This document shows, piece by piece, positions 3,746 to 21,684 of a stretch of 26,813 nt of DNA (position 1 is the first letter of the stretch; the number at the start of each line of letters is the position of its first letter). The stretch is taken from the IMG/VR virus record IMGVR_UViG_3300042520_000961, positions 1 through 26,813 of that record; one strand, 5' to 3'. The notes beneath the pieces were generated by a model. The model did not search any database, was not told where the DNA came from, and worked only from the letters and a program-made list of their open reading frames with translations. Made by a program: the position numbers and the translations under genes. Source of the stretch: a virus.

Positions 3746-4153
3746 ATGCCGCTGCACTACGTCGAACCCCGCCTGCTGCCGTCCATCTGGCCGATTGCTG
3801 CACCCCTGCTGCAAAAAGCCATCGACATTGATCCCGGTTCGATCACAATCGAGCAAGTGGAGTACGGCGTTCGCACAAATGCTTACAGCCTGTTGGTTTG
3901 GGAAGAGCCGGGTGAGGGCATCACGGGTGCTGTGACGATCAGTTTCCAAGACCTGCCGATGCACCGCGTGGCACACGCACACTTAATGGGCGGCAAGAGT
4001 ATTGTCCGCAAGCACGTCTTTGAAGAAGCCATGAACTGGATGCGCCTGAACGGGGCGACAAAAGCGCAGTGCTGGTGCAAAGACAACTTGGTGCCCATGT
4101 ACGAAAAAATGGGTCTTGAGAAGACCCACAATGTGATGAGGATTGAGCTATGA
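3746..4153 (+). CDS. GNAT-like small protein, 135 aa, in virion cluster
   Basis: The length and layout fit a minimal GCN5-related N-acetyltransferase fold. A beta strand (ITGAVTISFQ) is followed by a helix-rich middle (EEAMNWMRLNGA) and a strand-helix end (AQCWCKDNLVPMYEKMGLEKT), where GNAT proteins typically have N..M...Y.K.GF. The classic Q/R-x-x-G-x-G/A acetyl-CoA loop is not clear, so catalysis is uncertain. Small GNAT-like proteins occur in the internal-virion clusters of podoviruses, and a non-enzymatic structural role is possible. The ATG follows the preceding stop by 2 bases with a weak ribosome binding site, and the stop overlaps the next ATG. Confidence 0.6.
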   Translation: MPLHYVEPRLLPSIWPIAAPLLQKAIDIDPGSITIEQVEYGVRTNAYSLLVWEEPGEGITGAVTISFQDLPMHRVAHAHLMGGKSIVRKHVFEEAMNWMRLNGATKAQCWCKDNLVPMYEKMGLEKTHNVMRIEL

Positions 4154-5202
4154 ACATTCTGGATATGAAACGCAAGATGTTGCCTCTGGGCAATCCTCAA
4201 GGCGACGGCGGTGGTGGTGGCGGTGGTACAACTACACAGGTCCAAGACTTGCCAGACTGGGCCAAGCCATACGCTCAAGAGGTTCTGGGCAAAGGCGCTG
4301 CGCTGTCTGAGGCCCCATACCAAGCGTATACCGGGGAGCGCATTGCGCAGTTCACCCCGCTGCAGCAGCAAGCATTCCAAGGCGCTGGCGCTATGGCCCC
4401 ATCGGCTGCCACAGGCGAGGCCGTTACTCGGGCGCTTGGCACATCCTACGACCCTTACGCCACTGGGCAGTTCGGCGCGCAGGCCAGCCAGTACATGGAC
4501 CCCTACATGCAGAACGTGGTGGGTATCCAGCAGCGCGAAGCCGCTCGGGCATCCGAGATGCAGCGCAACCAGAATCAAGCGCAGGCCGTCGGGCAAGGCG
4601 CTTTTGGCGGTTCGCGCCAAGCCATCATGGAAGCGGAGCGCCAGCGCAATCTGGCTACGCAGCAAGGTGACATCCAAGCCCGTGGCTTGCAGGATGCGTT
4701 CAGTCGTGGCCAGACCCAGTTCAACACTGAGCAGCAGCTGCGCGAGCAGTCCAAGCAGTACGGCGCGGGCCTCGGTCTCCAAGGTCTTCAGACGGCCCTC
4801 ACAGGCGCTGGCCAGCAGTTCCAGCAAGGCATGGACGTCAACAAGCTGCAGGCAGGCTACGGCACGCAGCAGCAGCAACAGGTGCAGAACATCCTCGGCC
4901 AGCAGTACCAAGACTTTCAGGATCAGAAGAAGTTCCCATACCAGCAGCTGGAGTTCCAATCCAACCTGTTGCGCGGCACGCCATCTGGCACGACTCAAAC
5001 CATGTACACAGCACCTCCAAGTGCCAGCTCACAGCTTCTTGGCGCAGGTACAGCTTTGGGCGGCGCATACCTTATGGGTGGACGGGCCAATGGCGGCGTT
5101 GTCAGCAGCTACGCCAAGGGCGGCAAAGTGTCTGACGCCAAGGTCAAGCGCGAAACAAAAAAATCGGCAGGTTTGGCTGAGCTGGCCCTGTCTAAAATCT
5201 GA
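4150..5202 (+). CDS. Gln/Ala-rich probable internal virion protein, 350 aa
   Basis: The start overlaps the upstream stop (ATGA). A run of seven glycines sits at about residues 20-26. A conserved-looking helical region follows, with YMDPYMQNVV, QREAARASEMQRNQ and GAFGGSRQAIMEAERQRN at about residues 115-170, and then long Gln-rich amphipathic helices to about residue 280. The C-terminal tail has A-N-GG...A-K-GG at 313-325 and ends Lys-rich. There is no signal peptide. The composition and position match proteins ejected from the capsid with the DNA in short-tailed phages, in the way P22 gp7/gp20/gp16 or T7 gp14-16 are. That role is inferred from context, and no enzymatic motif is visible. Confidence 0.7.
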   Translation: MNILDMKRKMLPLGNPQGDGGGGGGGTTTQVQDLPDWAKPYAQEVLGKGAALSEAPYQAYTGERIAQFTPLQQQAFQGAGAMAPSAATGEAVTRALGTSYDPYATGQFGAQASQYMDPYMQNVVGIQQREAARASEMQRNQNQAQAVGQGAFGGSRQAIMEAERQRNLATQQGDIQARGLQDAFSRGQTQFNTEQQLREQSKQYGAGLGLQGLQTALTGAGQQFQQGMDVNKLQAGYGTQQQQQVQNILGQQYQDFQDQKKFPYQQLEFQSNLLRGTPSGTTQTMYTAPPSASSQLLGAGTALGGAYLMGGRANGGVVSSYAKGGKVSDAKVKRETKKSAGLAELALSKI

Positions 5203-5210
5203 GGTAAGCC

Positions 5211-6923
5211 ATGATTGACGTCAACAAAATTACCTCCACGCTGGCCAAGTTGCCAGACCAGCAGCTGCAGCAATACGCGCAGATGCACAAGAGCGATCCG
5301 TACATCATGGCCTTGGCCATGTCGGAGTCCAACCGCCGCAAAGAGATGCGCTCTGCTGGTCAGGGCGCACAAGGCATGCAAGAGCAGCCCAAAGTGGTCG
5401 ACCAGATGGTGGCCGAGATGGCTCCCCAGCAGCTTCCCGAAGACCAAGGTATTGGCCAGCTCCCCGCAGGCAACATGAACTTTGCAGGCGGCGGCATCAT
5501 TGCATTTGCTGACGGCGGTGATGTTGAGCGGTATCAGTACGGCGGCATGCCGCCGCGCAGCATCATGGGGGACATTCCCGGTTTTGTTGCCGGTACAGGC
5601 AACCTCATCCCCCAGCAGGGCGCTCCAGAAGAAGTGCCGCTTTTCCGCAGAATGTTTCGAGACGCTCGTGCCGTAGGCGCAAACTACCAGCTTGAGCAAG
5701 CCAAGGCCCGTATTGCTGCAGGAGTAGGCACTTCCGCCGATGAAGCAATTATTGCCGCCGCACAGCCAGCGCAAAGCACGGCTCCGTCCCCCCAAGACAT
5801 GGCGCAGTTTGATGCCGCGTCTAACCTGTACATGACTGAGCGTGCAGCCAAACAAGCGGCTGCCCCCAAAGCTCCCGATGCCGCGCCCAAAGTTGACCCT
5901 ACCCGTCGTTCTGGTACAGGCACCGGGGCTGCCTCCGCCGCAGCTGCAGGCACCAAACAGCCCCCACAAGCGGGGCTCGATGACCTGATTCAAAAATATC
6001 AGCGCCAAACGGACTTGAACATTGGGCAGGCGCGAAATGCTACCGCGCAGTACGCAAAAGAACTTGAAGACGAGGGTACACAACTTGTGGCATCCGAGAA
6101 AAAACGGATTGCTGAAAAGGTCGATCCGTACAAAGACCGCGAAGCCCGTCTGCTCAAACAGGAAAAAGACTCGGAGGGTATGGGCGACAAGTACTTGGGG
6201 CTTGCGTTGCTGCAGGCAGGTGCGGCAATGATGACCACACCGGGCGGCATCGGTATGGCTTTGGGCAAAGGCGTTCAAGTTGGAAGCGACCGCTACATTG
6301 CGGGTATAGAAAAGATCAACGCCGCCAAAGAGAAGTTTGCATTGGCCAAAGACAGGCTGGAAGATTTGCGGATTAACCGCGCCGACATGAACGAGCGCGA
6401 TGTACGGGATGCCGAAAAAGAAGCGCGTTCGCTCAACCGCCAAGGCAAGTCGCTGTTCTACAGCGGCGCAAAAGACGAGCTGAACATGAAGGACAAGCAG
6501 ATTACGGCGGTGCTGGGGCTTGCAGCAGACGATCTCAAAACAACTCGCCAGATTGATGCTGAGCGCCAGAACACCCTCATAAGGGAAGGCGGGGCAAACA
6601 CTCGGAACAAGGCCACTACAGACGCCGCCATGCAGAGCCCCGAACGTCTGGCGTTTTTGTCTGCTTTGGAGAAAACAAAGACCAAGGAAAATCCGCAAGG
6701 AGACCCGGCTGCCGCATACCAAAGCATTATTGCAATGAAGCGCGAACCTGTCTCGATCGAAAACCTGCGCAAAGATTGGTTGGATACGGCTAAGAAGATG
6801 GAAATTCAGTCTAGCTACCCTAACATCAAAACTTTTGAAGACTACGTAGCGGTCTTTGGTGGCGGTGCAGGCGGGGCAGGGGGCGACGGCTTTAAGGTTG
6901 TCGGCGTGCGTCCAGCGAAGTAA
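5211..6923 (+). CDS. Coiled-coil probable internal virion protein, 570 aa
   Basis: The ATG at 5211 is preceded by GAGGTAAGCC, a good ribosome binding site, 8 bases after the previous stop. The N-terminal domain (LPDQQLQQYAQMHKSDPY, then MALAMSESNRRKEMR) is followed by the motif FAGGGIIAFADGG at residues 91-103. An Ala/Pro-rich linker leads to a long charged coiled coil at about 260-480, interrupted at about 325-365 by a Gly/Ala/Met-rich hydrophobic stretch (LGLALLQAGAAMM, PGGIGMALGKG). The C-terminus ends in a Gly-rich run. The architecture is shared in style with its two upstream neighbours, suggesting a co-assembled set of ejection proteins. The function is unproven. Confidence 0.72.
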   Translation: MIDVNKITSTLAKLPDQQLQQYAQMHKSDPYIMALAMSESNRRKEMRSAGQGAQGMQEQPKVVDQMVAEMAPQQLPEDQGIGQLPAGNMNFAGGGIIAFADGGDVERYQYGGMPPRSIMGDIPGFVAGTGNLIPQQGAPEEVPLFRRMFRDARAVGANYQLEQAKARIAAGVGTSADEAIIAAAQPAQSTAPSPQDMAQFDAASNLYMTERAAKQAAAPKAPDAAPKVDPTRRSGTGTGAASAAAAGTKQPPQAGLDDLIQKYQRQTDLNIGQARNATAQYAKELEDEGTQLVASEKKRIAEKVDPYKDREARLLKQEKDSEGMGDKYLGLALLQAGAAMMTTPGGIGMALGKGVQVGSDRYIAGIEKINAAKEKFALAKDRLEDLRINRADMNERDVRDAEKEARSLNRQGKSLFYSGAKDELNMKDKQITAVLGLAADDLKTTRQIDAERQNTLIREGGANTRNKATTDAAMQSPERLAFLSALEKTKTKENPQGDPAAAYQSIIAMKREPVSIENLRKDWLDTAKKMEIQSSYPNIKTFEDYVAVFGGGAGGAGGDGFKVVGVRPAK

Positions 6924-6927
6924 AATA

Positions 6928-6948
6928 ACGCCAGCGCCATGCTGGCGT
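6928..6948 (+). promoter_or_regulatory. Perfect 8-bp stem-loop between virion genes
   Basis: ACGCCAGC (6928-6935) pairs perfectly with GCTGGCGT (6941-6948) around a GCCAT loop. It starts 4 bases after the stop of the 570-aa gene and ends 11 bases before the AGGAAG ribosome binding site of the giant gene. No T-tract follows, so it is not a standard terminator. It may be an RNA-processing or mRNA-stability element, or it may tune expression of the giant protein. The loop contains an ATG (6939) in the giant gene's frame, which would be buried. Confidence 0.55.
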
Positions 6949-6959
6949 ACTCACAATTC

Positions 6960-6965
6960 AGGAAG
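6960..6965 (+). promoter_or_regulatory. Ribosome binding site deciding the start of the giant gene
   Basis: AGGAAG lies 6 bases before ATG 6972. The upstream in-frame ATG at 6939 sits inside a hairpin loop without a Shine-Dalgarno. The protein read from 6972 begins MPIYSVQGPDGRIYDVEGP, a natural-looking small N-terminal domain, so 6972 is preferred. Confidence 0.7.
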
Positions 6966-6971
6966 CAGGCT

Positions 6972-9900
6972 ATGCCCATTTACAGCGTACAGGGTCCAGA
7001 CGGACGTATTTATGATGTGGAGGGCCCTGCTGGCGCTTCCGAAGATCAGATTCTTGGCGCAGTACGCCGCCAGTTCTTGACGGCTCAGGCCCCTGCGCCG
7101 GAAAAGAAGGGCTCTGGCTTGGGCGACATTGCTCGCTCGTTTGGTCTGGGCGCGGTAGGTTCGACTGGGGCAATTGCCAGTGCGGCTGGAGCCGATAACG
7201 CAGCTGCCCGCGCCCTTGATCGGGCAGGCGAACGCCTTCAAGAAGGCTTTAGCGCAAGCCGCAAAGCCGAACTGCAGGCACAAGCCGAGCGCATGAAAAA
7301 AGCCGAGGCGTCCGGCTCCACCCTTGAAGAGATCAAAGCCGGTGCCCTCAACGTGATTGAGGCTCCGTTGCAGTCTGCTGCGCAGGCCGTAGGTTCGTTT
7401 GTTCCCCTTGTCCCCACACTGTTCTTGGCCAAGCCGTTGGCAGCTTTGGGCCTTGGGGCACGCGCCATCATGGGTATTCGTGGTGCAATTGGCGGAGCGC
7501 AGGGTGCCGGTGCAGTCAAGCAAAACATCTACGACACGGTGCTGGAAGCCGAAAAAGCCGACGGCAAGACTGACGAGCAGGCAAACGCTGCCGCAGCGCG
7601 TGCGCAGTCCTATATCAGCGAGAACGCAGACCAAATCCTTTTGGGCACAGGTCTCGGCGTTGCTGCTGGTACTACCGGCGTTGAACGCATTTTGCCCGGC
7701 GGCGCACGCGGCGCGGCAAGCAAGGCGCAGGAAGCATTGGCCAAACGTCTGGGTGCACGCACAGCGTCAGGTATCACAACCGCAGCGGCCGAGATGCCGC
7801 TCGAAGGTTTGCAGGGCGGACAAGAACGACTGGCTGCCAACCTTGCTTTGCAGCGCACGGGCCGTGACGTTGATGCGTTTACCGGTGTGGCAGGTCAAGC
7901 CACACAAGAAGCACTGACTGGTGCATTTGGCGCTGGCCCAGTTGGCTTTTTGTCGCCTGACCGACGCGCTGAGCTTGCAGAAAAAGAGCGCCAGCAAAAG
8001 GAGCAGGCCGATGCTGCGGCCGCAGCCGAAGCTGCCAAGAACTCCCCTGAAGCACTGCGCCAACTGGACACCGAGTTCCGCACAACCGACCAGCAGCTTA
8101 AAGCGCTGAACGCGCAGCTCAACGCAAACAAACCCAAGAAGGGTGCAACCGACGAGCAAAAGCAAGCGTACGAAGCCCTCAAGGCCCAGCGCGACGAACT
8201 GCTGGTTGGGTACAAGCCGCTGCGTCAGGAGTTCATGCAGCGTAAGAGTGCGATTGATGCGCTGCAGACCGCCGAGCAGTCGGCCATAGAGGTCGCTGCC
8301 GCAGAGGGGCAAACCGCCGCAAAGCAGCCACTGCCGTCCGACATCCCCGGCGCACAGCCGTTCCAGTTGTCAGACACCTCGCGTCTGATGAACGAGTACG
8401 ACAACCTGCGCAACCAAGTAGGTACGCTGGAGCAACAGCTGGCCGCAGGCCCTGACCTCGATACCCAGACACAACTGACGCAGCAGCGCAGCCAGATCAT
8501 GGCCCGCATGGCAGAGATGGCCCCGGTCATTGAGGAGCGCGGTGGTGTCACGGACACCGAGAAAGATTTTGCCAAGAAGCTGGCCGCTGCCGAGAAAGAG
8601 CGCTTGCGTCTGCTTGAGATCGGCGACTTTGAAGCGGCTGCAAAACAAGCCGAGGTTGTGCGCGATCTTCAGGCCCGTGCCCCACTCTTGCAAGAGCTGA
8701 CCGCTTTCCGCACGCAGTCTGGCCAAAACCGCAATTTGTTTGCAGAAGCTCCGGCCCCCGCTGAGACAGAGACAGATGCGCAACTCAAGCAGCAAACTCT
8801 GGAAGAAGAAAAACAACGGGCGCTGTATGGTCCCGAGTCAAAGAAAGCATCTGCTGAGCAAGCGTTTGGCGAAGCCGCTGTTGGCCCTCGCGGTCAGCTG
8901 GAGCCCATCACGCCCATGCCTGACCTCAAAGCACAGACAGGCATCAAGCCAAAACAGTTGGAGCTGGTGGAGGAGACAAACCAGAAAGTAGCTGCTGCAC
9001 AAACTGCCTTGTCCGACGCGGCCAAGACCAAAGACACGCAGGCAATTTACGCTGCTGCCGATGCGCTCAACCAAGCACAGAGCGAAGGCTCCCGTGCGCA
9101 GGACGAAGTTGGCCGTGGCATGTTCCGCCCCGTGGTGTTGGATTTGTTCAGCCCTGCCAACATCATGAACACCGCAATTCAAAGCGGCGACACCAAGCTA
9201 ATCAACGACATCGCTACCCACGCCGATACTACGGCACTGCGTACGGCGCTGGATGAAAAAGCCAGCGAGCGCGATAGGCTGGTGCGTTTGCTCGACACAC
9301 GCTTGGACTTGGGCGGTGAAGAGAAATCCTCAACAGGCGAAAAACTAAAAAGCGTCAAGCGCGAACGCGCCGACTTGTTCTCCCAACTGTACGATGCCCG
9401 GCAGCAAGCGCTATTCAAGAACGGCACATACCCTGACCGTGAACTGCAAGCCCTCTACGACAAAGGCGGTCCAGCCGCCGTTGAGTACGAGCGCGTCATG
9501 CAGGACGTTGAAGAGCTGTCCAAGAAGGTCACGACCAAGCAAGGCAACGCCAAGAAGTCGTTATATGAGCAGCTCGTGGACTTGGCTGCTCAGCACGCTG
9601 CGTTGATGGCTCAGATGGAAGCAGGCGTTGCTACGCCCAACCTGCGCGAGAAGACTGCTGGACTGCAAGCAAAGCTAGGCAAGGGAGAAGCCCCGGCTGC
9701 GCGTCAGATGGACGCCGCAGAAAAGTACCAGCTCCAGCGCAGGATTGATGCAGTCGTCAACAAGTACCGCATGGTTGAAGGCCAAGTGGCCCCTGTCCGT
9801 GACCAGATCACGAAGTTGTACAGCAGCTTGTACAAGACTACGCCGCTTGAGAAGGCCAGCACCGTTGCTGAGCGCCGTGTCCGCGAATCTGACGAAGCCG

Positions 9901-12900
9901 CAAGAGGCCCCAAGGCTAAGACACGTACAGCCTCTACTGCTACGCGTATTGCCAAAGGCAACGTGCGCAAAGAAGCGGAGACCTCGCAGAAGATGCGCGA
10001 TCTGGCGCGTGACTTGGGTATGGAAGAAGCCGAGTACAAAAAGTTCAGCGACAAACTCACCAAGCGCTATGCTGACTTGAAAGAGAAGTACGGCAAGAAC
10101 GATCCTGCGGTAAACAAGTTCCAGATCGGCATGGCTGACCAGCTGACCGACAAAGCAATGGAGCTGGGCAAGGCTACGCCCGAGTACAAAGCCACGCTGA
10201 AAGAGCAGATCGAGTACGTCAAAGGCGCACTGGCACAGAGCAAACAGGCAATCCCAACAAAGCGCTCAGGGCAAGTTACGCGCAAGCAGTCGGCAGCGCC
10301 GAGTCGTTTGGTCACGTCGTCGCCTGAGAGCCGCGCACAGACAAACATTGAAGACCGCGCAGTGCGCATCAAGCGCGGCTCACTCAAGGACTTCCAAGAA
10401 GGCATTGACTCCGAGAAAGAAGGTCGGGATTTCTTGCGCGGTGTTGAGGTTGAGAGTGTTGAACTGGACAGCGTGACGGTCTCATTGCTCAAGCAAAACG
10501 ATCTGCGCAGCGCACTTACAAGGGTTGGCGTAGACAACAACGTCGACGAGTTTAGCCGCGCTGTGGCTAAATTGCTCAAGACCGTCTTGGATAAAACCGA
10601 CGTCAAGCTCGTCAACAAGCTGGTTGATGATGCCGGAAAAGAAGTGCTGGGGGCCGCAACCAGCCAGCTCATTGAGTTGAATACAGACGGCGGCTTGTCG
10701 GTGGAGACACTGCTGCACGAAGGAACGCACGCTGCGGCTGAACGCATAGTGCAGCTGGCTGAGACCAACCCCGACTTGTTGACCAAAGAGCAAAAGCTCG
10801 CCATCAACGAGCTTAAGGCCATTCACGCCCGAGTCAAAGCCGATCCCGGCATCACCAGCAAAAATGCCAAGGGCAGCCTGTCCGAGTTCATTGCCGAAGT
10901 GATGTCTAACGCCAATCTGCAAAAGCAGTTGAAGCAGCGCAAGTGGCGCATGTCTGACATGTGGAAAGGCATCAAGTCCGTCATCATGCGGATGTTGGGC
11001 TTCAAAGATGTCGAGACAATGTTTGGCGCATCCGCTGTGGCAATTGAGCAGCTGTTCGTTCCGTCCAGCGTGCGCAATCTCGGCGGCAAAGCCAGCGCCG
11101 AAACCAAAGTAACGCGAAACCTGTCCGCAAAAGAAATTGCTGCACTGGACGACGGCAGCAATTCCATGAAGCAGTTTGCTGCGCAGTTTGGCGATCTCAT
11201 CAAGCAAAAGGACCGCACGCCAGAAGACGTAGAGCGTATTGCAGATCAAGTAATTGACAGCATGTTGGCCAGCGTTGCAGACGCTCCTCGCCGAAGCGGT
11301 GCGCCTCGTTTGAAGTCAGTCAGTATGGCTGACCAAGAGGCCCGACGCGCAGCGTCTGTTGTGGCGCTGCCGACAAAAGACTCGCTGGACTACAAAGGCA
11401 TGACCACCATGTCTGACGGCAAGCCTTACGACGAGAACAACCCACTGCACTACGTTGAGGCAACTCCAGCTACATTTGCTGCGTTGGAAGCAGTGAACAA
11501 CCCTCAGTTGCGCGAGAGAGAAGCTGATGCTATTACCAAACAGCGCAGAAAAGATTTTCAAAGCCTTGGCGATTACTTGCAGGCCAACTACAAGAACTAC
11601 ACAACTGTGGAGACAGCGCTGGTGCTCAAAGCTGCGGCCAAGTACGGCGTCATCTCTGGCAGCAACGGCCGTTTGAAGTTAGTTGAAATTGGCAAAGACA
11701 ACCGCCACAACATTGCCGTGCTTGGCAAAGAAACCGCAGACGCGGTCATCGAGCAGTTGCGTGCAGGCAAGGGCCTCAAGCAAGCTTTCTTGGACGGCTT
11801 GCAGAAAAACGCAGACGACAGCGCCAAGAACAACGAGCGCAAGAACGGTTGGAAAAAGTTTGACCAAGCTATTGCATCGTATGACGCGCAAAAAGAATTT
11901 GCCTTTGACGAATACGAAGCGCACCTTGAAAGCCTGTATACAGACGCTGAAATAGACACTGCGTTTGACCAAACAGGGTACGACGGCGCGGCATTTGCAA
12001 ATAACGCCGGGCTCATTGACCAGCTAATCGGTGATGGGTTTTTAGAAGACAGACGGACAATCCGTCCCCCAGATCAAGAAATTGCAACCAACAATAAAAG
12101 TGTGGAAGAAGCTGCAATTGCCCTGAACGAAGGTTGCGCAGGTACGCCGTGGTGCACAGGCGCGAGCGTAGGTACGGCCCGCAGTCAAATTGAAGAGGGC
12201 GATTTCTACGTCTACTACAACAAGGGTCGTCCTGAAGTGGCTGTTCGCATGGATGGTGACAACAAGATTGGCGAAGTTCGTGGCAACAACCCAAACCAAG
12301 CGCTTGACCCTGCGCAGCAACAAATTGCTGCCAACTTTTTGCGGGCAAAAAAGTTTGAAAAAGCGGATGAGTACCTTTCGGAGTTTGAGCGCCGTGAAGC
12401 GTTGGTCAAACTGGCCAAGGGCGAAACAAAACTGGACGTTAAAGATTTGCTGGGGGAAGACTCTATTGTTAACAGCAACGGCAAAATAAACGAAAGCAAA
12501 ATAAAGTCCAAACTTCGTTTCCGCGTCATTGACGGTTACGGCAACCGCCCTGCCCCCGCCCAAAACATCATTGATTTTTTTGGTCAGCAGTATCTTGACA
12601 CGGCGATTACCGCTTACGAAAACAACCAGTTTGTTTTTTCAGACATTAACGTCGACGAAAACTTAAACAACAAACCAATTGAAGTTGAGTTTGCCGGTAA
12701 AAAATACAAAGCGTTGCCGACGGAAATCAAAGCGGTAAATGAAATCAACCTCAACGTGTACACGTACCGTGGCAAAACTCAAAAAAGTTTAGAGCTTCCA
12801 AAAATGCAGTACGTAGGATTGCTTGACGTTTTTAACGGAACGCTTAACCTTCCTGCGTTGGTAGAAGTAAAGAGCATTGTATTTTTTCGGGACACGCTTG

Positions 12901-15900
12901 GGCAACCCAACGACACTGCAAGACTTGTTTTGCCCGCAGACGCCGTTGTAAAAGAAGTTAGCGCGTATGGCGGCAAGTCCAGCGGCACAATTGAAGGTGT
13001 TGAAACCATTCAAACCGTTACGCTGCGCGACGGTACTAACGGCTTGACGTTGGTGCTGCCCGACACAAAATATGCCAACGTAGTAAGCGACGATAAAAAG
13101 GTAGCAAGCGGTTTTGCGCTCAATGCTGTAAGACCTGTTGATACAGCGTTGGACGATGCAGGCATTGATTACTACTTACAACGCCGAATCAAACGCGGGG
13201 AAGGCACTACTGAAGAAACCGCCAAATACGAGGCGATTGTAAAACCGGCGTTTAAAAAGTTTTTTACTGCTATTGAAAACGTGTTTGGGTACGAAGCGTA
13301 CGAGCACGCGTTGAACAACGACGAAACGGCAAAAGCGTACCGAAATACGTACGATTTTGATAACGCAGTTAGTACCGCCATAAAAGACGTACTGGAGCTT
13401 AACAAGTACTCCCGTGAAGCCTTTGACAAAATGGCCAAGGTCATCAAAGACTCGACCGGCGCAAAGGTGGCATACCCAGAAGGCGAACTGATTGCGCCCA
13501 AGCGCGTGGGCGATCCACCGTACGGAGCAGAGTTTACTGAGGCTCCTGAAGAGCGCCGCTTTGCTCCCAAAGATGTGGGCGTGCAGAAAGACAAGCAGGG
13601 CGGCTTCTCGTTTGCCCGTAAGCAAGTCAACTCGTCGTCTGTGGTTGCCCGTGAGCCGGGCGTTGTGGACACCATACTGGGCAACATGCTCGGCCTTGCA
13701 GGCCGTGTGCAGTTCATCGACCAGTACGCAGCTTTGGAAGCCGCTACTAAGAAGGGCTTGAGCGCGGGCGTCATAAGCAGCTTGGAGGCTACCAACGCCA
13801 ACTACCTGCTGCGGTTTGGCCAGCAGCGCAGCCAGTTCTCAGGTCAGTTCCTGACCAACGGTCCGGTCAAGGCGGAGATCACGCGCAAGAACGGCGGCAC
13901 TGAGACGCTGTACCGCAGCACCAAGGGCACGTCCATGGTGGACGTTGCGCAGGCACTCAACAAAGCCAAGCTGTCCAGCGACGTAGAGCAGGAGAACATG
14001 TTCACGTTGTACGTGGCAGGCAAGCGTGCGCAGCAAGTTGGGTGGGACAAGCTGAACTTTTCCAGCCCTACGCAAGCTAAGGCTGAGTACGACGCAGTCA
14101 TCGCTCGGCTGAACATCAACGAGACCGCCAAGAAAGCGTTTGAGGAAGCCGCCAAGCTGTACCAAGAGTACAACGCAGGCTTGCTGGACTTCCTTGCGCA
14201 GACAGGCGCGTTGTCGGACAAGAAGGTGGCCGAGCTTAAAGCGATCAGCTACGTGCCGTTCTACCGTGTGAACAACAACGGTGAAGTTCAGTTGATGGTG
14301 GACAAAGAGCGCCCAGTTCGGATTGCCAACATCAAGGACCAGCCGCAACTCAAGGAGCTGATCGGCGGCAACACCGCCATCTTGCCAATCTTTACCAGCG
14401 CAGCGCAGAACACGTTCATGCTGACCGGCATGGGCCTGCGTAACCAAGCGGTGAAAGAGACGTCCTTCATGCTGCAAAAGCTGGGTATTGCCAGCCGTGT
14501 AGCCTCGGGCAACGGCCCGACAGGGGCCAACGTGGTGCGCTTCTTCAAGAAGGGCGAGCCTTACTACGCACTGATCGACACCGACGCTTACGGCATCCCG
14601 GCCGATTTGATTGTGCGCGGCATGGAGGGCATCAAGACAACGATGCCCGCTATCATCAAGCTGATGGGAATCCCTGCCAACATCTTGCGCTCGTTTGTTG
14701 TGCGTAACCCTGCCTACGCTGTGCGTCAGATCATCCGTGATCCGCTCAACGCATGGATGACTACCGGCACTGACGCTGTGCCCGTGCTCTCGTCCATGAA
14801 AGAGCTGGCCAGTATGGTCGCAGGGCGCAGTGAAGCCGAGCGCAAGCTCATGGAGACAGGCGCAATCAGCAGCAACGTCTACAGCGGTGACGATCAAGAC
14901 ATGGCCAAGTTCCTCAAAGACATGTCGGCAGGCAAGTCTGGGTGGGACAAAGCCACCGCGATGCTGGACACGTTTGCGCTGCAGGGCGATGCCGCTACAC
15001 GCGCTGTGATCTACAAGGACTCGCTGGCCAAAGGCATGTCGGAGCAAGAAGCACTGCTGCGCACACTGGAGTCAATGAACTTCAGCCGCCGTGGCGTGTC
15101 GCCCAGCATGCAGGCGCTGTCTACCCTCATCCCGTTCTTCAACGCACAGGTGCAGGGTCTGGACGTGATTTACCGGGCCATGAAAGGCGACATGCCTTAC
15201 AGCCAGCAGCTCGACATCCGGGGCAAGATGGTGCGCCGTGGTTTGATGCTGGCCGCAGGCACGATTGCCTACGCCGCCATGATGGAGGACGACGAAGCCT
15301 ACAAACGCGCCAAACCTGAAGAGCGCCTTGCCAACTGGTTTGTTTACGTGCCCGGTGTTGACGAGCCTGTGCGTGTGCCAATCCCGTTTGAAATGGGTTT
15401 CTTGTTCAAGGCGTTGCCTGAAGCTGTGTACGCTATGGCCATGCAAGACGGCAAAACGGACGCTGCACTGAGCGGGTTGTCCAAGCTGGCCCTGCAGACT
15501 GTTCCGTTGAGCTTGCCGCAAGCGGTTAAGCCGTTGACAGAAGCTGTGCTGGGCAAATCGTTCTACAGCGGTGACATCGAGTCCACACGCGAGAAAGACG
15601 TGCTGGCAACGCAGCGTTACCGCGACAACTCCACAGAGCTGGCCAAAACAATTGGTGCTGTGACAGGCAACGTGGGGCTCAGCCCCATCACGATCGACTA
15701 CCTGATTCGTGGGTACACCGGCGGTCTGGGGATTGCGCTTGTGCAGCTGGCCAACCCGATACTGGCTCCGGGCGACAAAGCCGAGGTTGCGCAGCCTACG
15801 ACCAAGATCAGCAAGACGCCATTCATTGGCGGTTTGTTCCAGCCCGTTGAGGGCCGGGGCACGCTGGACGAAGCCTACGACCGCATGAAAGAGATTCAGC

Positions 15901-16166
15901 AGGTCAAGGGCACGTTCAACGACATGGTCGATAAAGGCAAACGCGCTGAAGCCATGGCGTTTGCGCAAGAGTACTCGGAGAAACTGGCCGCAGCATCCGT
16001 CTCTGGCAGTGTGCAAAAACGTCTGGGGGAGCTGGCCAAGCTGGAGCGCCAGATCAAGAGCAGCCCGAACCTGAGCACCGAGCAGAAAGATTTGCGTCTG
16101 GCACAGCTGGACAAGCTCAAGACAGCTACGGCTCGGCAGTTTCTTGCAACAACCGCTCAGCGATAG
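6972..16166 (+). CDS. Giant polyvalent virion protein, 3064 aa, with metallopeptidase-like and LPD38-like regions
   Basis: Layout from the chosen start: a small N-terminal domain (1-35); an Ala/Gly hydrophobic region with possible membrane segments (about 120-300); very long charged coiled coils (about 320-1150); a HEGTH zinc-protease-like motif with H1249, E1250, H1253 and candidate third ligand E1305 or E1309; a WCTG module around W1727; an AT-rich beta/solenoid-like segment (about 1820-2150); and a C-terminal region of about 900 residues. The last includes RNPAYAVRQIIRDPLNAW near 2578 and NFSRRGVSP...IPFFNAQVQG at 2703-2730, the signature I associate with large polyvalent protein domain 38. 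Such proteins are packaged and ejected with phage DNA. They can carry peptidoglycan, anti-restriction or protease modules. The architecture is seen directly; the ejection role is inferred. No lysozyme or transglycosylase motif was recognised. Confidence 0.8.
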   Translation: MPIYSVQGPDGRIYDVEGPAGASEDQILGAVRRQFLTAQAPAPEKKGSGLGDIARSFGLGAVGSTGAIASAAGADNAAARALDRAGERLQEGFSASRKAELQAQAERMKKAEASGSTLEEIKAGALNVIEAPLQSAAQAVGSFVPLVPTLFLAKPLAALGLGARAIMGIRGAIGGAQGAGAVKQNIYDTVLEAEKADGKTDEQANAAAARAQSYISENADQILLGTGLGVAAGTTGVERILPGGARGAASKAQEALAKRLGARTASGITTAAAEMPLEGLQGGQERLAANLALQRTGRDVDAFTGVAGQATQEALTGAFGAGPVGFLSPDRRAELAEKERQQKEQADAAAAAEAAKNSPEALRQLDTEFRTTDQQLKALNAQLNANKPKKGATDEQKQAYEALKAQRDELLVGYKPLRQEFMQRKSAIDALQTAEQSAIEVAAAEGQTAAKQPLPSDIPGAQPFQLSDTSRLMNEYDNLRNQVGTLEQQLAAGPDLDTQTQLTQQRSQIMARMAEMAPVIEERGGVTDTEKDFAKKLAAAEKERLRLLEIGDFEAAAKQAEVVRDLQARAPLLQELTAFRTQSGQNRNLFAEAPAPAETETDAQLKQQTLEEEKQRALYGPESKKASAEQAFGEAAVGPRGQLEPITPMPDLKAQTGIKPKQLELVEETNQKVAAAQTALSDAAKTKDTQAIYAAADALNQAQSEGSRAQDEVGRGMFRPVVLDLFSPANIMNTAIQSGDTKLINDIATHADTTALRTALDEKASERDRLVRLLDTRLDLGGEEKSSTGEKLKSVKRERADLFSQLYDARQQALFKNGTYPDRELQALYDKGGPAAVEYERVMQDVEELSKKVTTKQGNAKKSLYEQLVDLAAQHAALMAQMEAGVATPNLREKTAGLQAKLGKGEAPAARQMDAAEKYQLQRRIDAVVNKYRMVEGQVAPVRDQITKLYSSLYKTTPLEKASTVAERRVRESDEAARGPKAKTRTASTATRIAKGNVRKEAETSQKMRDLARDLGMEEAEYKKFSDKLTKRYADLKEKYGKNDPAVNKFQIGMADQLTDKAMELGKATPEYKATLKEQIEYVKGALAQSKQAIPTKRSGQVTRKQSAAPSRLVTSSPESRAQTNIEDRAVRIKRGSLKDFQEGIDSEKEGRDFLRGVEVESVELDSVTVSLLKQNDLRSALTRVGVDNNVDEFSRAVAKLLKTVLDKTDVKLVNKLVDDAGKEVLGAATSQLIELNTDGGLSVETLLHEGTHAAAERIVQLAETNPDLLTKEQKLAINELKAIHARVKADPGITSKNAKGSLSEFIAEVMSNANLQKQLKQRKWRMSDMWKGIKSVIMRMLGFKDVETMFGASAVAIEQLFVPSSVRNLGGKASAETKVTRNLSAKEIAALDDGSNSMKQFAAQFGDLIKQKDRTPEDVERIADQVIDSMLASVADAPRRSGAPRLKSVSMADQEARRAASVVALPTKDSLDYKGMTTMSDGKPYDENNPLHYVEATPATFAALEAVNNPQLREREADAITKQRRKDFQSLGDYLQANYKNYTTVETALVLKAAAKYGVISGSNGRLKLVEIGKDNRHNIAVLGKETADAVIEQLRAGKGLKQAFLDGLQKNADDSAKNNERKNGWKKFDQAIASYDAQKEFAFDEYEAHLESLYTDAEIDTAFDQTGYDGAAFANNAGLIDQLIGDGFLEDRRTIRPPDQEIATNNKSVEEAAIALNEGCAGTPWCTGASVGTARSQIEEGDFYVYYNKGRPEVAVRMDGDNKIGEVRGNNPNQALDPAQQQIAANFLRAKKFEKADEYLSEFERREALVKLAKGETKLDVKDLLGEDSIVNSNGKINESKIKSKLRFRVIDGYGNRPAPAQNIIDFFGQQYLDTAITAYENNQFVFSDINVDENLNNKPIEVEFAGKKYKALPTEIKAVNEINLNVYTYRGKTQKSLELPKMQYVGLLDVFNGTLNLPALVEVKSIVFFRDTLGQPNDTARLVLPADAVVKEVSAYGGKSSGTIEGVETIQTVTLRDGTNGLTLVLPDTKYANVVSDDKKVASGFALNAVRPVDTALDDAGIDYYLQRRIKRGEGTTEETAKYEAIVKPAFKKFFTAIENVFGYEAYEHALNNDETAKAYRNTYDFDNAVSTAIKDVLELNKYSREAFDKMAKVIKDSTGAKVAYPEGELIAPKRVGDPPYGAEFTEAPEERRFAPKDVGVQKDKQGGFSFARKQVNSSSVVAREPGVVDTILGNMLGLAGRVQFIDQYAALEAATKKGLSAGVISSLEATNANYLLRFGQQRSQFSGQFLTNGPVKAEITRKNGGTETLYRSTKGTSMVDVAQALNKAKLSSDVEQENMFTLYVAGKRAQQVGWDKLNFSSPTQAKAEYDAVIARLNINETAKKAFEEAAKLYQEYNAGLLDFLAQTGALSDKKVAELKAISYVPFYRVNNNGEVQLMVDKERPVRIANIKDQPQLKELIGGNTAILPIFTSAAQNTFMLTGMGLRNQAVKETSFMLQKLGIASRVASGNGPTGANVVRFFKKGEPYYALIDTDAYGIPADLIVRGMEGIKTTMPAIIKLMGIPANILRSFVVRNPAYAVRQIIRDPLNAWMTTGTDAVPVLSSMKELASMVAGRSEAERKLMETGAISSNVYSGDDQDMAKFLKDMSAGKSGWDKATAMLDTFALQGDAATRAVIYKDSLAKGMSEQEALLRTLESMNFSRRGVSPSMQALSTLIPFFNAQVQGLDVIYRAMKGDMPYSQQLDIRGKMVRRGLMLAAGTIAYAAMMEDDEAYKRAKPEERLANWFVYVPGVDEPVRVPIPFEMGFLFKALPEAVYAMAMQDGKTDAALSGLSKLALQTVPLSLPQAVKPLTEAVLGKSFYSGDIESTREKDVLATQRYRDNSTELAKTIGAVTGNVGLSPITIDYLIRGYTGGLGIALVQLANPILAPGDKAEVAQPTTKISKTPFIGGLFQPVEGRGTLDEAYDRMKEIQQVKGTFNDMVDKGKRAEAMAFAQEYSEKLAAASVSGSVQKRLGELAKLERQIKSSPNLSTEQKDLRLAQLDKLKTATARQFLATTAQR
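12050..13430 (+). other. AT-rich, compositionally distinct segment inside the giant gene
   Basis: Hand counts give 121 G+C in 300 bases (40%) over 12601-12900, against 35 of 60 (58%) at 14161-14220. Codons shift to AAA, TTT, GTA and GTT. The segment begins around the WCT module and continues through a Leu/Val-rich stretch with repeated LxLP-like turns (LNLPALVEV, LVLPADAVV, LTLVLPDTK) that suggests a beta-solenoid or degenerate leucine-rich repeat. The reading frame stays intact. This looks like a horizontally acquired domain cassette. Its boundaries are approximate. Confidence 0.55.
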
Positions 16167-16345
16167 AACCAAACCCCGCTCAGTCCCTTGTGGACGGCGG
16201 GGTAGGCTTTAGCGTCGAAGATGCGGCAGCGCAGCGCCTCACTGAGGCCTGCTTTGCGTACTGCCTCAGAGTCGAGGCAGGGGACGAAAAACCCCTGCCC
16301 CCGCTCAACTCGTGACCATGGGAATGCTCTGGAGTATCGAGTCAT
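16157..16345 (-). CDS. Probable small phage protein, 62 aa, at the convergent junction
   Basis: On the minus strand the frame ATG 16345 to TGA 16157 reads as a plausible protein with core GQGFFVPCLDSEAVRKAGL and ending in GVWFYR. Codon choice (CTG, GCC, GAC, TTC, CGC) looks like that of real genes here. The compact pattern of FFVPCLD, a helix with R and L, and a GVxFYR end resembles short phage proteins I have seen, but I know no function. The start overlaps the primase-helicase 3' end by 41 bases, with only a weak GAG upstream. A TTG at 16348 could serve instead. The stop overlaps the end of the opposing giant gene by 10 bases. Without it, 16167-16304 would be noncoding. Confidence 0.55.
   Translation of the reverse strand: MTRYSRAFPWSRVERGQGFFVPCLDSEAVRKAGLSEALRCRIFDAKAYPAVHKGLSGVWFYR
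16173..16203 (+). terminator. Possible bidirectional terminator hairpin between convergent blocks
   Basis: ACCCCGC (16173-16179) pairs with GCGGGGT (16197-16203). An inner GTCC/GGAC stem (16183-16186 with 16192-16195) closes a CTTGT loop. It lies 6 bases after the giant gene stop. On the plus strand it is followed by AGGCTTTAG, on the minus strand by TTTGGTTC, so the U-tracts are weak on both sides. The position fits a terminator, but it also lies within the putative 62-aa minus-strand gene. Confidence 0.4.
16261..16299. repeat. Two overlapping, mutually exclusive inverted repeats
   Basis: CTGCCTC (16261-16267) pairs with GAGGCAG (16274-16280), and GGCAGGGG (16276-16283) pairs with CCCCTGCC (16292-16299). 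The shared GGCAG means only one hairpin can form at a time. The element lies just downstream of the primase-helicase stop in the leftward direction. It may be a structural switch or simply a consequence of coding sequence. Confidence 0.4.
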
Positions 16346-19292
16346 CAAGTGTGCTCATGTTCGCGCTCAAACGCAGTGTTGCCACGCGCATCGGGGGTCC
16401 GTCTGTCCTAGCCATCATGTCCTTCTTGGGGACCTGATGCACGATAAACGATTGCGCGATCTCTTGCTTGAACGTGGCGTAGCTGAAGCTCATGTTTGAG
16501 CAGAACGCACGCAGCAGGCGCTCCTCGATGTAGTAGTCGATGTAGCCCGGATTGACGCCATGCTCCACCCGGCCCATGACTTCTTGGCGTGTCGTGGTCT
16601 TGCCAACCGTAGTGCCATCTCCGAACATGGCGGCAGGGCTGGCCTTCTCGCCGTACTTGACGATGACAAACTTGCCTTGGAACTCTTGGGTGTAGGCGTT
16701 GAGCACGTCTTCTGCTGTGCGCTTGCCGCCCTTGATGGCCTGACGCTGGTGGTCGATCTGGCGGCGGTACGACTCGATGATCTCCTGCAAGGGGATGTTG
16801 ACGATGCCTGCGTGCTTGTCGCTCAGAAGCAAGCCTGCGGCAATGATCGTGCCCACGCCAGCCATCCAGTAACGCTCGTCGTTGGGGGCCTTGTATTCGG
16901 CGTACATCCGGCGTACACACTCGGGCACCAGTTCGCGCAGCATGCTTGCGTTGTCCACCATGTACTGCACCAAGACCTCCCCGGCAACGCCGAAGTTGTT
17001 GGGCAGCGACTTGATGATCTCAATCTCCTCTTGCGACCACTCCAGCTTCACGTCCATGTTGAACTCGATCATGCGGCGCAGCTCACCCTCGGAAGAGTGC
17101 TTGCGCTCACCTGTCATGTAGTCAACGGCAGGGCGGTTGGATGACATCAGCGCCAGAGTAGCCCATGTGGACAGGTTCAGGCGCTCTTTGTTGGTGCCCG
17201 ACTCCATGCGCTCTTTGCCGCGCCCTTCGCTCATACTGAACAAGAAGGCAGGGAACCACTCAAAGTCCTTGCGGTTGTTGGTCGTGATCTCGTCCGTGAT
17301 TAGTGGCAAGCTGCGCAGGTGGCCAAGGCGCTGCTGCATGGCAACAGGCGATGTGCCCGCACCTGTGCGGTAGTGGATGGGGTGGCCCCAAACGGATGCG
17401 GCTGCGTCCAGCGACAACGACTTACCAGTGCCTGACTCAGTGGAGGCTACGTGCACGGTCATGCCGAGCAGGCCAGTGAACTTCATCAAGGGGGCGGCAG
17501 CACCGGCCAGCACCACGGCCAGCTGATCCCACATCTTGCGCCGCACCATCATGTTGATGACCTTGCGCCACTCGTCCAAGGAGCCGGTGGGTTTGGTGCT
17601 GTTCACAATGTTCTGCAGCTCTGTCATTGGCACCATGACGGGCGGTTTGTTCGCGCTGTACACGCGGCTTGCAAACACAAACGTGCCATCGTCTTGCCAG
17701 CCGTAGCTTGGCGGCATGTTGACGGGGGACTTCTCTACGCTCAGCTTCTCAACGCTGGCGCGGATGTAGTCGAAGAAGTTCTTGTCGTTGCCCGAGCCAA
17801 ACGCAGCCATGACGTTCTGGTTGGCCAAGTGCTTGACCGTCTCGTCTTTGCTGGCCAGACATTTCTGTGGGACCAGCACGTTGTGCAGCTGCTTGTTCTT
17901 GATGACGCAAAAATGCACCTCGTGGCTGCCGTTGTTGTTCAGCACGTCCACAGGGAAAATTGTGTTGGAGCACAGCAGCAGTTGCTTGGTCACCTTGTGG
18001 CCGTCAGCGTCCTCTTCGGAGCGCTCCAGAAATACACCGCCCCTTGCGCCAAAGGCATAGCCCCGTGGTGGCTCAGGCTGGGCGATCAGCACAGTGTCGG
18101 CCTCAGTATCGGCATCGACCGCTGCACTGCTTTCAACCTCGACCATGGTCTCGTCCGTGGTCAGCGCCATCTCTCTGCCCCACAGCAGTGGGTTTGTGAT
18201 CTTGCCCCAGTGGGAGCAGCCACGGCACACGCCGGGGTTCATGTCGTCCATGGCAGCGCAGGAGTACGGGCCTTTGATCTCGGCCAGCTTCTGGTGCATG
18301 CGCTCGTGTGGGTAGGGGTGCAGGTCACTCAACCACGTAGCGGCCTTCTCGCCGTCTGCGCAGACCTTGGCCCAACTGAGCATCCCACGCCAGATCGGCT
18401 CCATGCCATCGTCCGATGCGTTCTCCACATAGTTCTGGAGCTGGGCGCAGCCTGTGCCGCTTTTGGTTTTGACCAGAATTTTTTTGAACAACGTCACGCT
18501 GTTTTGCGCAAGCGCAGTCAACATGGCCGGTGCACTGACACCCGTTGGCCTCTGCCCCGGCAGCGCCAGCGTTGAGCTGGTGGGCTTCTTCACAAACTCA
18601 GGACCGAACCCCTCGGCCGTCATGATGGCCTCGATGTCGTCCACGGCAAAGCGATTGCCTTCGGAGAGACTGCGCACGCGAGTAGCTGCGCGTACGGCTT
18701 TGCCGTTCTTGATCCCGGTGTTGGTAGTGTCAGGTACGCGCAGGACTCGGGAAGCATCGCCAGTGACCGCAGTGTCGATAGCCAGCCCGTGTTTCAGGCA
18801 CAGCTCTTTGAAGCGCTTGGCAAAGGCGTACCAGTCGTCCTTGAACAGCATCTCGTCCAGCGGCCAGTAGGCGTGGATGCCACCGCCAGAGTGAACCAGC
18901 CAAGGGTCGCCCAGCGCAGCCAGCCCTGTGTCTTCGCAAAACTTCTGCAACGCCTGCGCCGCAGCTTTGGCGCTCGGGTATGACTTGGCCTTGATGACCA
19001 GCTCCCCGTCCTTGTCCGGCACCGGGATGTCTTTGGGGTGATTGCAGTCAAGGTCCACGGCCAGCACTTGGCTGGCGTGCATGTTCTCTTTGGTGCGGTC
19101 CTTGTCCGTGCCGAACGTGCCCAGCGCAAAGTACGTGTCGTATCCAGCCTGCGCCCACTTCTCAACGGTGGGCATGAGTTCCTCAAGTGTCTGTCCGAAG
19201 ACGTGTTGTTTCTTCTTTGAAAGTTCTACCGCGCAGTAATAGCCATTACCCGGAGACGGCAAAACCGCCGCCATCAAATCAAGCGGAGTCAT
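16305..19292 (-). CDS. Primase-helicase: AEP-type primase fused to a DUF927-like P-loop helicase, 995 aa
   Basis: The N-terminal third shows archaeo-eukaryotic primase motifs: VDLD (D80, D82) for metal binding, HSGGGIHAYW (134-143) with H140, and the D173 region followed by GDASRVLRVPDTTN, which contains conserved R182 and R185. A linker includes a possible zinc cluster (SCAAMDD..PGVCRGCSHWG). The C-terminal half has a P-loop STESGTGKS with K624 and a Walker B LITDE with D667/E668, in the arrangement of DUF927-type helicases. The protein would unwind the fork and make RNA or DNA primers. Its ATG is preceded by GAAGGACCTCC, 20 bases after the 49-aa gene. It is the last large gene of the leftward replication operon. 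A plasmid-type PrimPol is the nearest alternative description. Confidence 0.85.
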   Translation of the reverse strand: MTPLDLMAAVLPSPGNGYYCAVELSKKKQHVFGQTLEELMPTVEKWAQAGYDTYFALGTFGTDKDRTKENMHASQVLAVDLDCNHPKDIPVPDKDGELVIKAKSYPSAKAAAQALQKFCEDTGLAALGDPWLVHSGGGIHAYWPLDEMLFKDDWYAFAKRFKELCLKHGLAIDTAVTGDASRVLRVPDTTNTGIKNGKAVRAATRVRSLSEGNRFAVDDIEAIMTAEGFGPEFVKKPTSSTLALPGQRPTGVSAPAMLTALAQNSVTLFKKILVKTKSGTGCAQLQNYVENASDDGMEPIWRGMLSWAKVCADGEKAATWLSDLHPYPHERMHQKLAEIKGPYSCAAMDDMNPGVCRGCSHWGKITNPLLWGREMALTTDETMVEVESSAAVDADTEADTVLIAQPEPPRGYAFGARGGVFLERSEEDADGHKVTKQLLLCSNTIFPVDVLNNNGSHEVHFCVIKNKQLHNVLVPQKCLASKDETVKHLANQNVMAAFGSGNDKNFFDYIRASVEKLSVEKSPVNMPPSYGWQDDGTFVFASRVYSANKPPVMVPMTELQNIVNSTKPTGSLDEWRKVINMMVRRKMWDQLAVVLAGAAAPLMKFTGLLGMTVHVASTESGTGKSLSLDAAASVWGHPIHYRTGAGTSPVAMQQRLGHLRSLPLITDEITTNNRKDFEWFPAFLFSMSEGRGKERMESGTNKERLNLSTWATLALMSSNRPAVDYMTGERKHSSEGELRRMIEFNMDVKLEWSQEEIEIIKSLPNNFGVAGEVLVQYMVDNASMLRELVPECVRRMYAEYKAPNDERYWMAGVGTIIAAGLLLSDKHAGIVNIPLQEIIESYRRQIDHQRQAIKGGKRTAEDVLNAYTQEFQGKFVIVKYGEKASPAAMFGDGTTVGKTTTRQEVMGRVEHGVNPGYIDYYIEERLLRAFCSNMSFSYATFKQEIAQSFIVHQVPKKDMMARTDGPPMRVATLRLSANMSTLDDSILQSIPMVTS

Positions 19293-19312
19293 GGAGGTCC
19301 TTCGGGAATGGT

Positions 19313-19462
19313 TTACTTGAGGTCGTCTTCGGTGGTGTCCAGCAGCTTGGCGAAGCGCTCGTACAGCTCTTTCACGACTTCAGCAGGCACGGTGTAGTTG
19401 GCCATGTAGATGTGGCGCAGCAGTTCTTCGTCGGTCAGGGCTTGAGGTTGTACTCGTGACAT
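19313..19462 (-). CDS. Small acidic phage protein, 49 aa
   Basis: A clean ATG frame with a strong GGAGAA ribosome binding site 4 bases before the start. The product begins MSRVQPQALTDEELLRHIY, continues as two amphipathic helices (VPAEVVKELYERFAKLL) and ends acidic (DTTEDDLK). It overlaps the 3' end of the helix-turn-helix gene by 28 bases in another frame and sits directly upstream of the primase-helicase gene. It resembles small helical proteins commonly found beside replication genes of freshwater phages. The function is unknown; a replisome adaptor or regulator partner is a guess. Confidence 0.75.
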   Translation of the reverse strand: MSRVQPQALTDEELLRHIYMANYTVPAEVVKELYERFAKLLDTTEDDLK

Positions 19463-19713
19463 ATTCTTCTCCATGCCTCGTCAGCGTTCTGCGAGGACTG
19501 CATGATTGTTAAAAGGGTTTCCACGCGGTGGCGGTACGCGACAAAGACTTCTGATCCGTTGAACCAGTTGTAGACGGTCTGTCGTGTGACGCCGAGGGCG
19601 TAGGCGATTTTCGTGACAGGGAAATCCAAGTGGATAGCCCAACGCCCAAGCTGGTTGCCCAGAGACTTGGGAGTCTTCATCACGTCGTCAATGATTTTTT
19701 GTGAGTAGGCCAT
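19435..19713 (-). CDS. Helix-turn-helix DNA-binding regulator, 92 aa
   Basis: Residues 31-53 form a clear helix-turn-helix (FPVTKIAYALGVTRQTVYNW), with the recognition helix around TRQTVYNW. Flanking helices give the usual small Cro/XRE-like or homeodomain-like fold. The C-terminal helix region (DEAWRRICHEYNL) may dimerise. It probably binds an operator and controls early or late phage transcription, but no operator was identified. The start codon has no Shine-Dalgarno; a UUCG hairpin lies 6 bases upstream instead. It is embedded in the replication operon, which suggests autoregulation or a timing role rather than a lysogeny switch. Confidence 0.8.
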   Translation of the reverse strand: MAYSQKIIDDVMKTPKSLGNQLGRWAIHLDFPVTKIAYALGVTRQTVYNWFNGSEVFVAYRHRVETLLTIMQSSQNADEAWRRICHEYNLKP

Positions 19714-19719
19714 GGTAGT

Positions 19720-19735
19720 AGGGGCCGAAGCCCCT
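19720..19735 (-). promoter_or_regulatory. UUCG tetraloop hairpin before the HTH gene
   Basis: On the minus strand AGGGGC-TTCG-GCCCCT forms a 6-bp GC-rich stem with an exceptionally stable UUCG loop. It lies between the lipoprotein stop and the HTH start. No T-tract follows, only ACTACC and then ATG. It might be an mRNA-end or stability element, or a translational control element for the regulator. Confidence 0.55.
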
Positions 19736-19740
19736 GTTGT

Positions 19741-20118
19741 TTATCTGATCTCGATGTCAGGGATGATGGTCGAGGGCTTGAACACAACCCGATAGAAACT
19801 CGTGCTGACGTTCTTGGCGTCCAGTTGCTCAACAAAAAACGTCACGTTGTCAGACAGACCGAGAAAGTGCTTCTTGTAAACGCCGGGGCCCGTCTTGCAA
19901 GTTACCGAAAGGTAGCCCGCTTTGTCGTTGTTACCGAGAGAGCAGTAGCCTTCAATCGACAGCATGTAGTCGTTGGTGATGCCGTTGTAAAAAATCACAC
20001 GCCGGGCAACTTCAAAGTTGTCGGCGGCTTTGGATACGTTGCGCGATGCCACGTCTGCATCGGACTGACAACCAACGAGCGCCGCAGTAGCCAGCAGTGT
20101 TGCAATTAGTTTTTTCAT
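19741..20118 (-). CDS. Phage-encoded lipoprotein (beta-sandwich lipoprotein type), 125 aa
   Basis: A short basic start (MKK), a hydrophobic stretch (LIATLLATAAL) and a lipobox LVGC with acylated C17 mark a type II signal peptide. The mature protein is small and beta-rich, with a characteristic run NFEVARRVIFYNGITNDYML, a CKTG segment and an FVEQL segment. It would be exported and anchored in the inner or outer membrane of the infected cell. The ribosome binding site AGGAGA is strong. Lipoproteins of this size in phages can mediate superinfection exclusion or act in lysis. The sequence resembles phage proteins annotated as beta-sandwich lipoproteins, whose role I do not know. Confidence 0.8.
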   Translation of the reverse strand: MKKLIATLLATAALVGCQSDADVASRNVSKAADNFEVARRVIFYNGITNDYMLSIEGYCSLGNNDKAGYLSVTCKTGPGVYKKHFLGLSDNVTFFVEQLDAKNVSTSFYRVVFKPSTIIPDIEIR

Positions 20119-20216
20119 TTGCTTCTCCTGTTGTTAAAAGTAGGTGGGGGTACTCGCTGCGTCTGTCAGTGGCAGGAACGCCACCCGTGCCAGCATCCGC
20201 TTTCCCCCCGATTTAA

Positions 20217-21191: not shown

Positions 21192-21198
21192 GATTGCG

Positions 21199-21615: not shown

Positions 21616-21649
21616 TGCTTTCTCCTAATGTTTTTGTCAAGCGTTGGAC

Positions 21650-21677
21650 AGTTTACATGGGTTTTTTCTTTGCGCAA
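21650..21677 (-). promoter_or_regulatory. Candidate sigma70-type promoter in the gap after the helicase gene
   Basis: On the minus strand TTGCGC (21672-21677) and TAAACT (21650-21655) are separated by 16 bases, a partial match to -35/-10 elements. The -35 lies in a perfect TTGCGCAA palindrome (21670-21677). This is one of the few gaps of more than 60 bases in the leftward operon, upstream of the 138-aa and SSB genes. Support is weak. Confidence 0.3.
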
Positions 21678-21684
21678 CCCCCTT

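Follow-up and report, generated by a model that had tools for sequence, protein, structure and literature searches.

A giant phage protein with an LPD38 platform and an exchanged payload cassette, in the probable slot of T7 gp16 and N4 vRNAP

T7 gp16 and the N4 vRNAP (gp50) are third ejection proteins (PMC8954989, PMC12633501), and the N4 vRNAP is described as ejected (PMC12633501). Other giant phage proteins are known as polyvalent proteins, in which several unrelated domains share a chain and a zincin is the common hub. In the survey by Iyer et al. 2017 (PMC5512222), LPD38 is one of the listed domains whose function was unknown, and a zincin was proposed to process polyvalent chains.

The giant gene analyzed here is located in a linear 26.8-kb IMG/VR fragment, referred to below as the window, and its product resembles each of these systems in part. 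As in the LPD38 polyvalent proteins (PMC5512222), LPD38 and a zincin occur in a phage-encoded multidomain giant. Here, however, LPD38 lies in the tail of what is probably a gp16-slot ejection protein, and the payload is exchanged as a unit. Compared with N4 gp50 (PMC12633501), the gene order is the same, the size is similar (3064 versus 3500 aa), and in both a zincin precedes a large C-terminal part that reaches the end of the protein. In contrast to gp50, the giant is without an RNA polymerase domain, its tail is without similarity to the N4 C2 domain, and its payload cassette follows the zincin, whereas the N4 payload precedes it. phiKMV gp37, which over its full length matches the internal virion protein of PDB 9sfn, shares the gp16 slot and a zincin (motif HEAVHAA), but it comprises 1337 aa, is without the WCT cassette, and revealed no LPD38 similarity. 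T7 gp16 has the same third position, but it has no sequence similarity to the giant and is less than half its size. The N-terminal lytic transglycosylase of the T7 group has no Pfam match in the giant even at E 10, and no peptidoglycan hydrolase was found there with Pfam. Bcep22-type DarB-like giants are linked through phage JC1, whose protein, annotated as DarB-like antirestriction, weakly matches the platform (E 2e-6). Those giants carry a methylase and helicase payload (PMC10269572), whereas a zincin and WCT are present here.

The giant gene and its neighbours

The first-pass annotation described a single uninterrupted frame of 3064 aa that occupies a third of the window, and this description holds. 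The frame is open throughout from either ATG 6939 or ATG 6972 to the stop at 16166, and the gene makes up 34% of the window. The annotated start at 6972 is preferred over ATG 6939, because AGGA is found about 10 nt 5' of the former and is absent 5' of the latter, and because the alignment of relatives begins at the same Met-x-x-Tyr...PDG as the product of ATG 6972. Comparison with the relative L002 gives dN/dS values of 0.04-0.29. Purifying selection thus holds in each module, so the frame is not a chance occurrence. An inverted repeat (CGCCAGC...GCTGGCG, window 6928-6948) spans the earlier ATG 6939 just 5' of the likely start; it is terminator-like on the minus strand and possibly has a regulatory role.

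The gene, its neighbours and its modules are as follows. Residue numbers refer to the 3075-aa version; subtracting 11 gives the 3064-aa numbering.

3746-4153: 135-aa protein, upstream of the ejection genes
4150..5202, + strand: ejection protein (PHROG 4287), gp14-like by position
5211..6923, + strand: 570-aa protein in the gp15-like position
6972..16166, + strand: giant gene, 3064 aa (3075 aa if read from ATG 6939)
6972..7076, + strand: N-terminal tag of about 35 aa, MPIYSVQGPDG... (aa 12-46)
7101..7958, + strand: N-terminal region rich in Gly and Ala, including one strongly hydrophobic segment (aa 55-340)
7959..10388, + strand: long charged region, coiled-coil-like, Lys/Glu/Ala-rich (aa 341-1150)
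10455..11093, + strand: zincin metallopeptidase-like domain, type A (aa 1173-1385), with HEGTH at 10716-10730 (aa 1260)
11243..13406, + strand: payload cassette, a single unit of exchange between the window and the relative L009 (aa 1437-2155)
12090..12419, + strand: WCT core of the cassette, with WCT at 12150-12158 (aa 1738)
12615..13094, + strand: predicted beta-solenoid, hypervariable between relatives (aa ~1893-2052)
13095..13469, + strand: predicted helical block, hypervariable (aa ~2053-2177)
13581..16163, + strand: conserved C-terminal platform, common to all relatives (aa 2215-3075)
15291..15809, + strand: LPD38 (PF18857) inside the platform, Pfam match (aa 2785-2957)

Each of the regions named in the first-pass annotation (hydrophobic, coiled-coil, protease-like, WCT and LPD38-like) is thus present, and the polyvalent architecture of zincin, WCT cassette and LPD38 in a single frame is borne out. 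A version of the N-terminal tag opens each full-length relative inspected, and L009 has a different version on a body that is otherwise nearly identical to the window protein. The hydrophobic segment (aa 143-161 in the 3064-aa numbering) makes the Gly/Ala-rich region a candidate for membrane interaction. No Pfam domain was found in the long charged region, and a tblastn search of annotated phages with the N-terminal 1354 aa gave no match.

The order of ejection protein, gp15-like protein and giant recurs in most relatives with loci that cover this stretch, and in most of them the 570-aa gene is directly 5' of the giant. In Pelagibacter phage HTVC034P, tail tube genes are followed by an internal virion protein B-like gene, genes for a 580-aa and a 1229-aa protein (gp46-gp45-gp44 being the three slot genes), and a tail fibre gene. 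The tail of the 1229-aa protein aligns with the platform (E 5e-26). The same order is found in N4 gp52-gp51-gp50, phiKMV 35-36-37 and T7 14-15-16, and this agreement with HTVC034P, N4, phiKMV and T7 places the giant in the slot of T7 gp16 and the N4 vRNAP. A tblastn search of annotated phages with the two upstream ejection genes gave no match. The 135-aa gene at 3746 was considered as a gp13-like acetyltransferase and set aside, as the Pfam hint is weak (E 0.17) and HTVC034P gp47 is not similar to it. Elsewhere, window 19741-20118 adjoins replication genes and matches PHROG 478, a family named recombination directionality factor (E 2.4e-54); it is odd here, as no integrase was seen in scans of the fragment.

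The platform and the zincin-like domain

LPD38 lies in the giant's C-terminal 860 aa. Absence of similarity to LPD38 in this region would have spoken against the first-pass annotation, but PF18857 is found at 107.7 bits (curated cut-off 27) and E=1e-30. Single-sequence comparisons, which are weak tests, gave no match of the platform to T7 gp16 or the N4 C2 helical domain with hhalign, and no similarity to phiKMV gp37 by profile comparison. The structure models were built on whole multi-domain stretches, and that of the platform is poor (pLDDT 60); Foldseek with this low-confidence model found no match, and PDB sequence searches with the platform and cassette profiles returned nothing usable. 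With no platform similarity to these three proteins, and with a platform model of too low quality to decide the fold, the assignment to the slot rests on position and the zincin. E-values from the related-locus search refer to candidate stretches only. Among bacterial genomes, the platform was found in one MAG contig, a near-absence that fits a mostly virulent lineage.

The protease-like region of the first-pass annotation is identified as a zincin by its HEGTH motif, by profile matches and by its predicted fold, and its peptidase activity is putative. The two His residues and the Glu of the motif, together with two downstream Glu residues, are invariant among 18 diverse type-A zincin domains. 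PHROG 2206, which represents the N4 vRNAP, has its best match in the zincin part of the giant, and profile comparisons link this domain to the C1 zincin domain of the N4 vRNAP (E 1e-5) and to phiKMV gp37 (E 3.9e-5). Membership of the giant in the N4 vRNAP family was rejected: no Pfam polymerase was found, and in the best PHROG 2206 match the aligned profile positions, 2098-2291, lie past the polymerase domain.

Structure matches of the predicted zincin model (5-206) are all zincins or N4 gp50, with Z of 5.2-7.6. They include lethal-factor-type catalytic domains (Z up to 7.6), N4 gp50 (9pnr; Z 6.8, rmsd 4.9, 147 aligned) and Pro-Pro endopeptidases (Z about 6), and the model also resembles viral models of internal virion proteins and of a virion RNA polymerase. 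As Z is below 8, the fold match is to be read jointly with the sequence match. The likeness of the model to lethal-factor-type domains is one of shared fold and has no bearing on toxicity.

A protease motif is a regular feature of this slot. In all 67 distinct relatives that have 1100 aa or more upstream of the platform, one HExxH/HExxxH motif falls within that distance (0.86 expected from shuffles), and only one of the 67 has a motif inside the platform. Several zincin clades occupy this place among the relatives. The motif is missing from two short relatives, those of HTVC034P (gp44) and Bacillus phage Page_20, so the slot does not require the protease.

Exchange of the zincin and the payload cassette

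The DNA of the window and of L009 is 96-98% identical over 7092-11242, 13407-19743 and 20142-22978 (about 13 kb aligned), and window 11243-13406 is replaced in L009. Between the two, dS reaches 1.4-3.2 in the cassette, against 0.04-0.14 for the coil, zincin and platform. GC3 in the window changes from 0.71 in the zincin to 0.53 in the cassette and 0.75 in the platform. Other close pairs repeat this contrast; for example, L088 and L093 are 96% identical in the platform and 93% in the zincin, but 52% in the cassette.

Larger replacements also occur. In nine relatives (L007, L008, L010-L012, L014, L015, L017 and L018), zincin A and the cassette give way to a different zincin type (HELIGHYG and variants), and L016 has zincin A alone. 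Well supported branches of the platform tree force at least 8 changes in the zincin A plus WCT state. In L015, the giant lies in two overlapping frames (5949-8714 and 8648-12631), which reflects either an error in sequencing or a genuinely split gene. Neither Pfam nor PHROGs scans revealed a strong domain in the middle regions of relatives in the metagenomic set.

The WCT core has many invariant residues, which include T..WCT, GDFY, RM and E.RG. Across 28 pairs of relatives with zincins of 85% identity or more, identity averages 92% for the zincin and 81% for the WCT core, compared with 52% for the solenoid and 49% for the helical block, and solenoid identity is below zincin identity in 27 of the 28. 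Such conservation of the core next to a variable solenoid suggests an enzyme whose recognition part changes. The one structural lead to the chemistry of WCT is a weak GNAT-like signal in the predicted model (Z 5.0-5.3 over about 80-90 residues). A possible relation of WCT to PcfJ found no support: PF14284 is without a match at E 10 in six relatives' records.

WCT is also present in LPD39 giants and in one 694-aa protein, so it moves between backbones. In L101-L103, giants of about 2450 aa carry WCT ahead of two HExxH/HExxxH motifs, and L101 matches LPD39; these represent the WCT module on a different backbone. The 694-aa protein (L104, 5158-7239) has the WCT core outside any giant. No occurrence was confirmed in bacterial genomes, and an alignment of the WCT core alone is too diverged for scanning.

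Among LPD38 proteins of annotated phages, payloads ahead of the same tail include a methylase and ddrB-ParB in Aeromonas phiARM81mr, a helicase and methylase in Vibrio 1.232.O, and a methylase in Vibrio 1.183.O. The first-pass annotation had raised a role at the time when restriction acts. This is not borne out, since Pfam detects no methylase, helicase, ParB or Ard domain in the giant, whereas same-slot relatives do have methylase, helicase and ddrB-ParB domains.

Proposed function and significance

The giant is probably an ejectosome protein, that is, the largest of a short-tailed phage's ejection proteins and the third in order, which would occupy the T7 gp16/N4 vRNAP slot and deliver a swappable effector. 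Synteny and homologues support the earlier suggestion that it is ejected together with the DNA. In this model, which joins observed features (architecture, synteny, modular exchange and selection) to inferred ones (ejection, proteolysis and the action of WCT), copies packaged in the virion would exit before the DNA, together with the two ejection proteins encoded by the neighbouring genes. Roles in packaging, threading or membrane insertion would fall to the N-terminal tag and the Gly-rich region, and the LPD38-containing platform would form the conserved inner-membrane or cytoplasmic part of the channel. Between them would sit the payload, the zincin protease and, here, the WCT core with its variable solenoid. 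After entry, the zincin may cut the chain, or a host protein; the cut would allow the WCT part to act on a host target selected by the solenoid. The first-pass annotation did not include the payload swapping, the protease rule or the gp16-slot position.

The giant might instead be an internal head or assembly protein that stays behind and whose zincin matures the capsid; phage head proteases are common. This is very unlikely: the gene adjoins ejection-protein genes rather than head genes, and the N4 vRNAP, which has the same architecture, is ejected (PMC12633501). The HExxH domain could also be a structural remnant without peptidase activity, retained for folding or ejection. The two short relatives manage without the motif, and the accessible text of PMC12633501 refers to the N4 C1 domain through its motif and reports no proteolysis. 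Yet motif and downstream Glu residues are invariant in the diverse type-A domains, and the motif persists in every one of the 67 relatives even though zincin clades replace each other, which makes a remnant unlikely.

For the cassette, a tentative proposal is that the slot is an injected polymorphic effector system, in which a conserved ejection platform and protease deliver interchangeable payloads; the WCT cassette would then be an undescribed enzyme whose hypervariable solenoid picks host targets in an entry arms race. Alternately, the variable cassette might be an envelope adaptor rather than a cytoplasmic effector, with WCT and the solenoid helping the ejectosome to cross or bind a host-specific envelope and the variation tracking differences in host surfaces. 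Hypervariability of the solenoid beside a conserved core and platform is compatible with such an adaptor, as are the resemblance of the predicted solenoid to those of surface proteins such as Ag43 and the lack of any known cytoplasmic domain found in the cassette. The adaptor is nevertheless rather unlikely, because the DNA methylase, helicase and ddrB-ParB payloads of same-slot relatives are sensible only in the cytoplasm, the WCT core retains many invariant polar residues, as enzymes do, and WCT also occurs on the LPD39 backbone.

With the giant read as an ejectosome protein, LPD38, which had no assigned function in the 2017 list, gains a concrete place in the tail of a gp16/vRNAP-slot ejection protein, and T7-like, phiKMV-like, N4-like and polyvalent giants are linked by position and protease. 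Since the payload slot is marked, the payloads of relatives can be listed by reading between the zincin and the platform, which shows where such phages vary the material that they would inject at entry. Should these payloads target host defences or metabolism during entry, the slot would be a natural library of entry-stage effectors.
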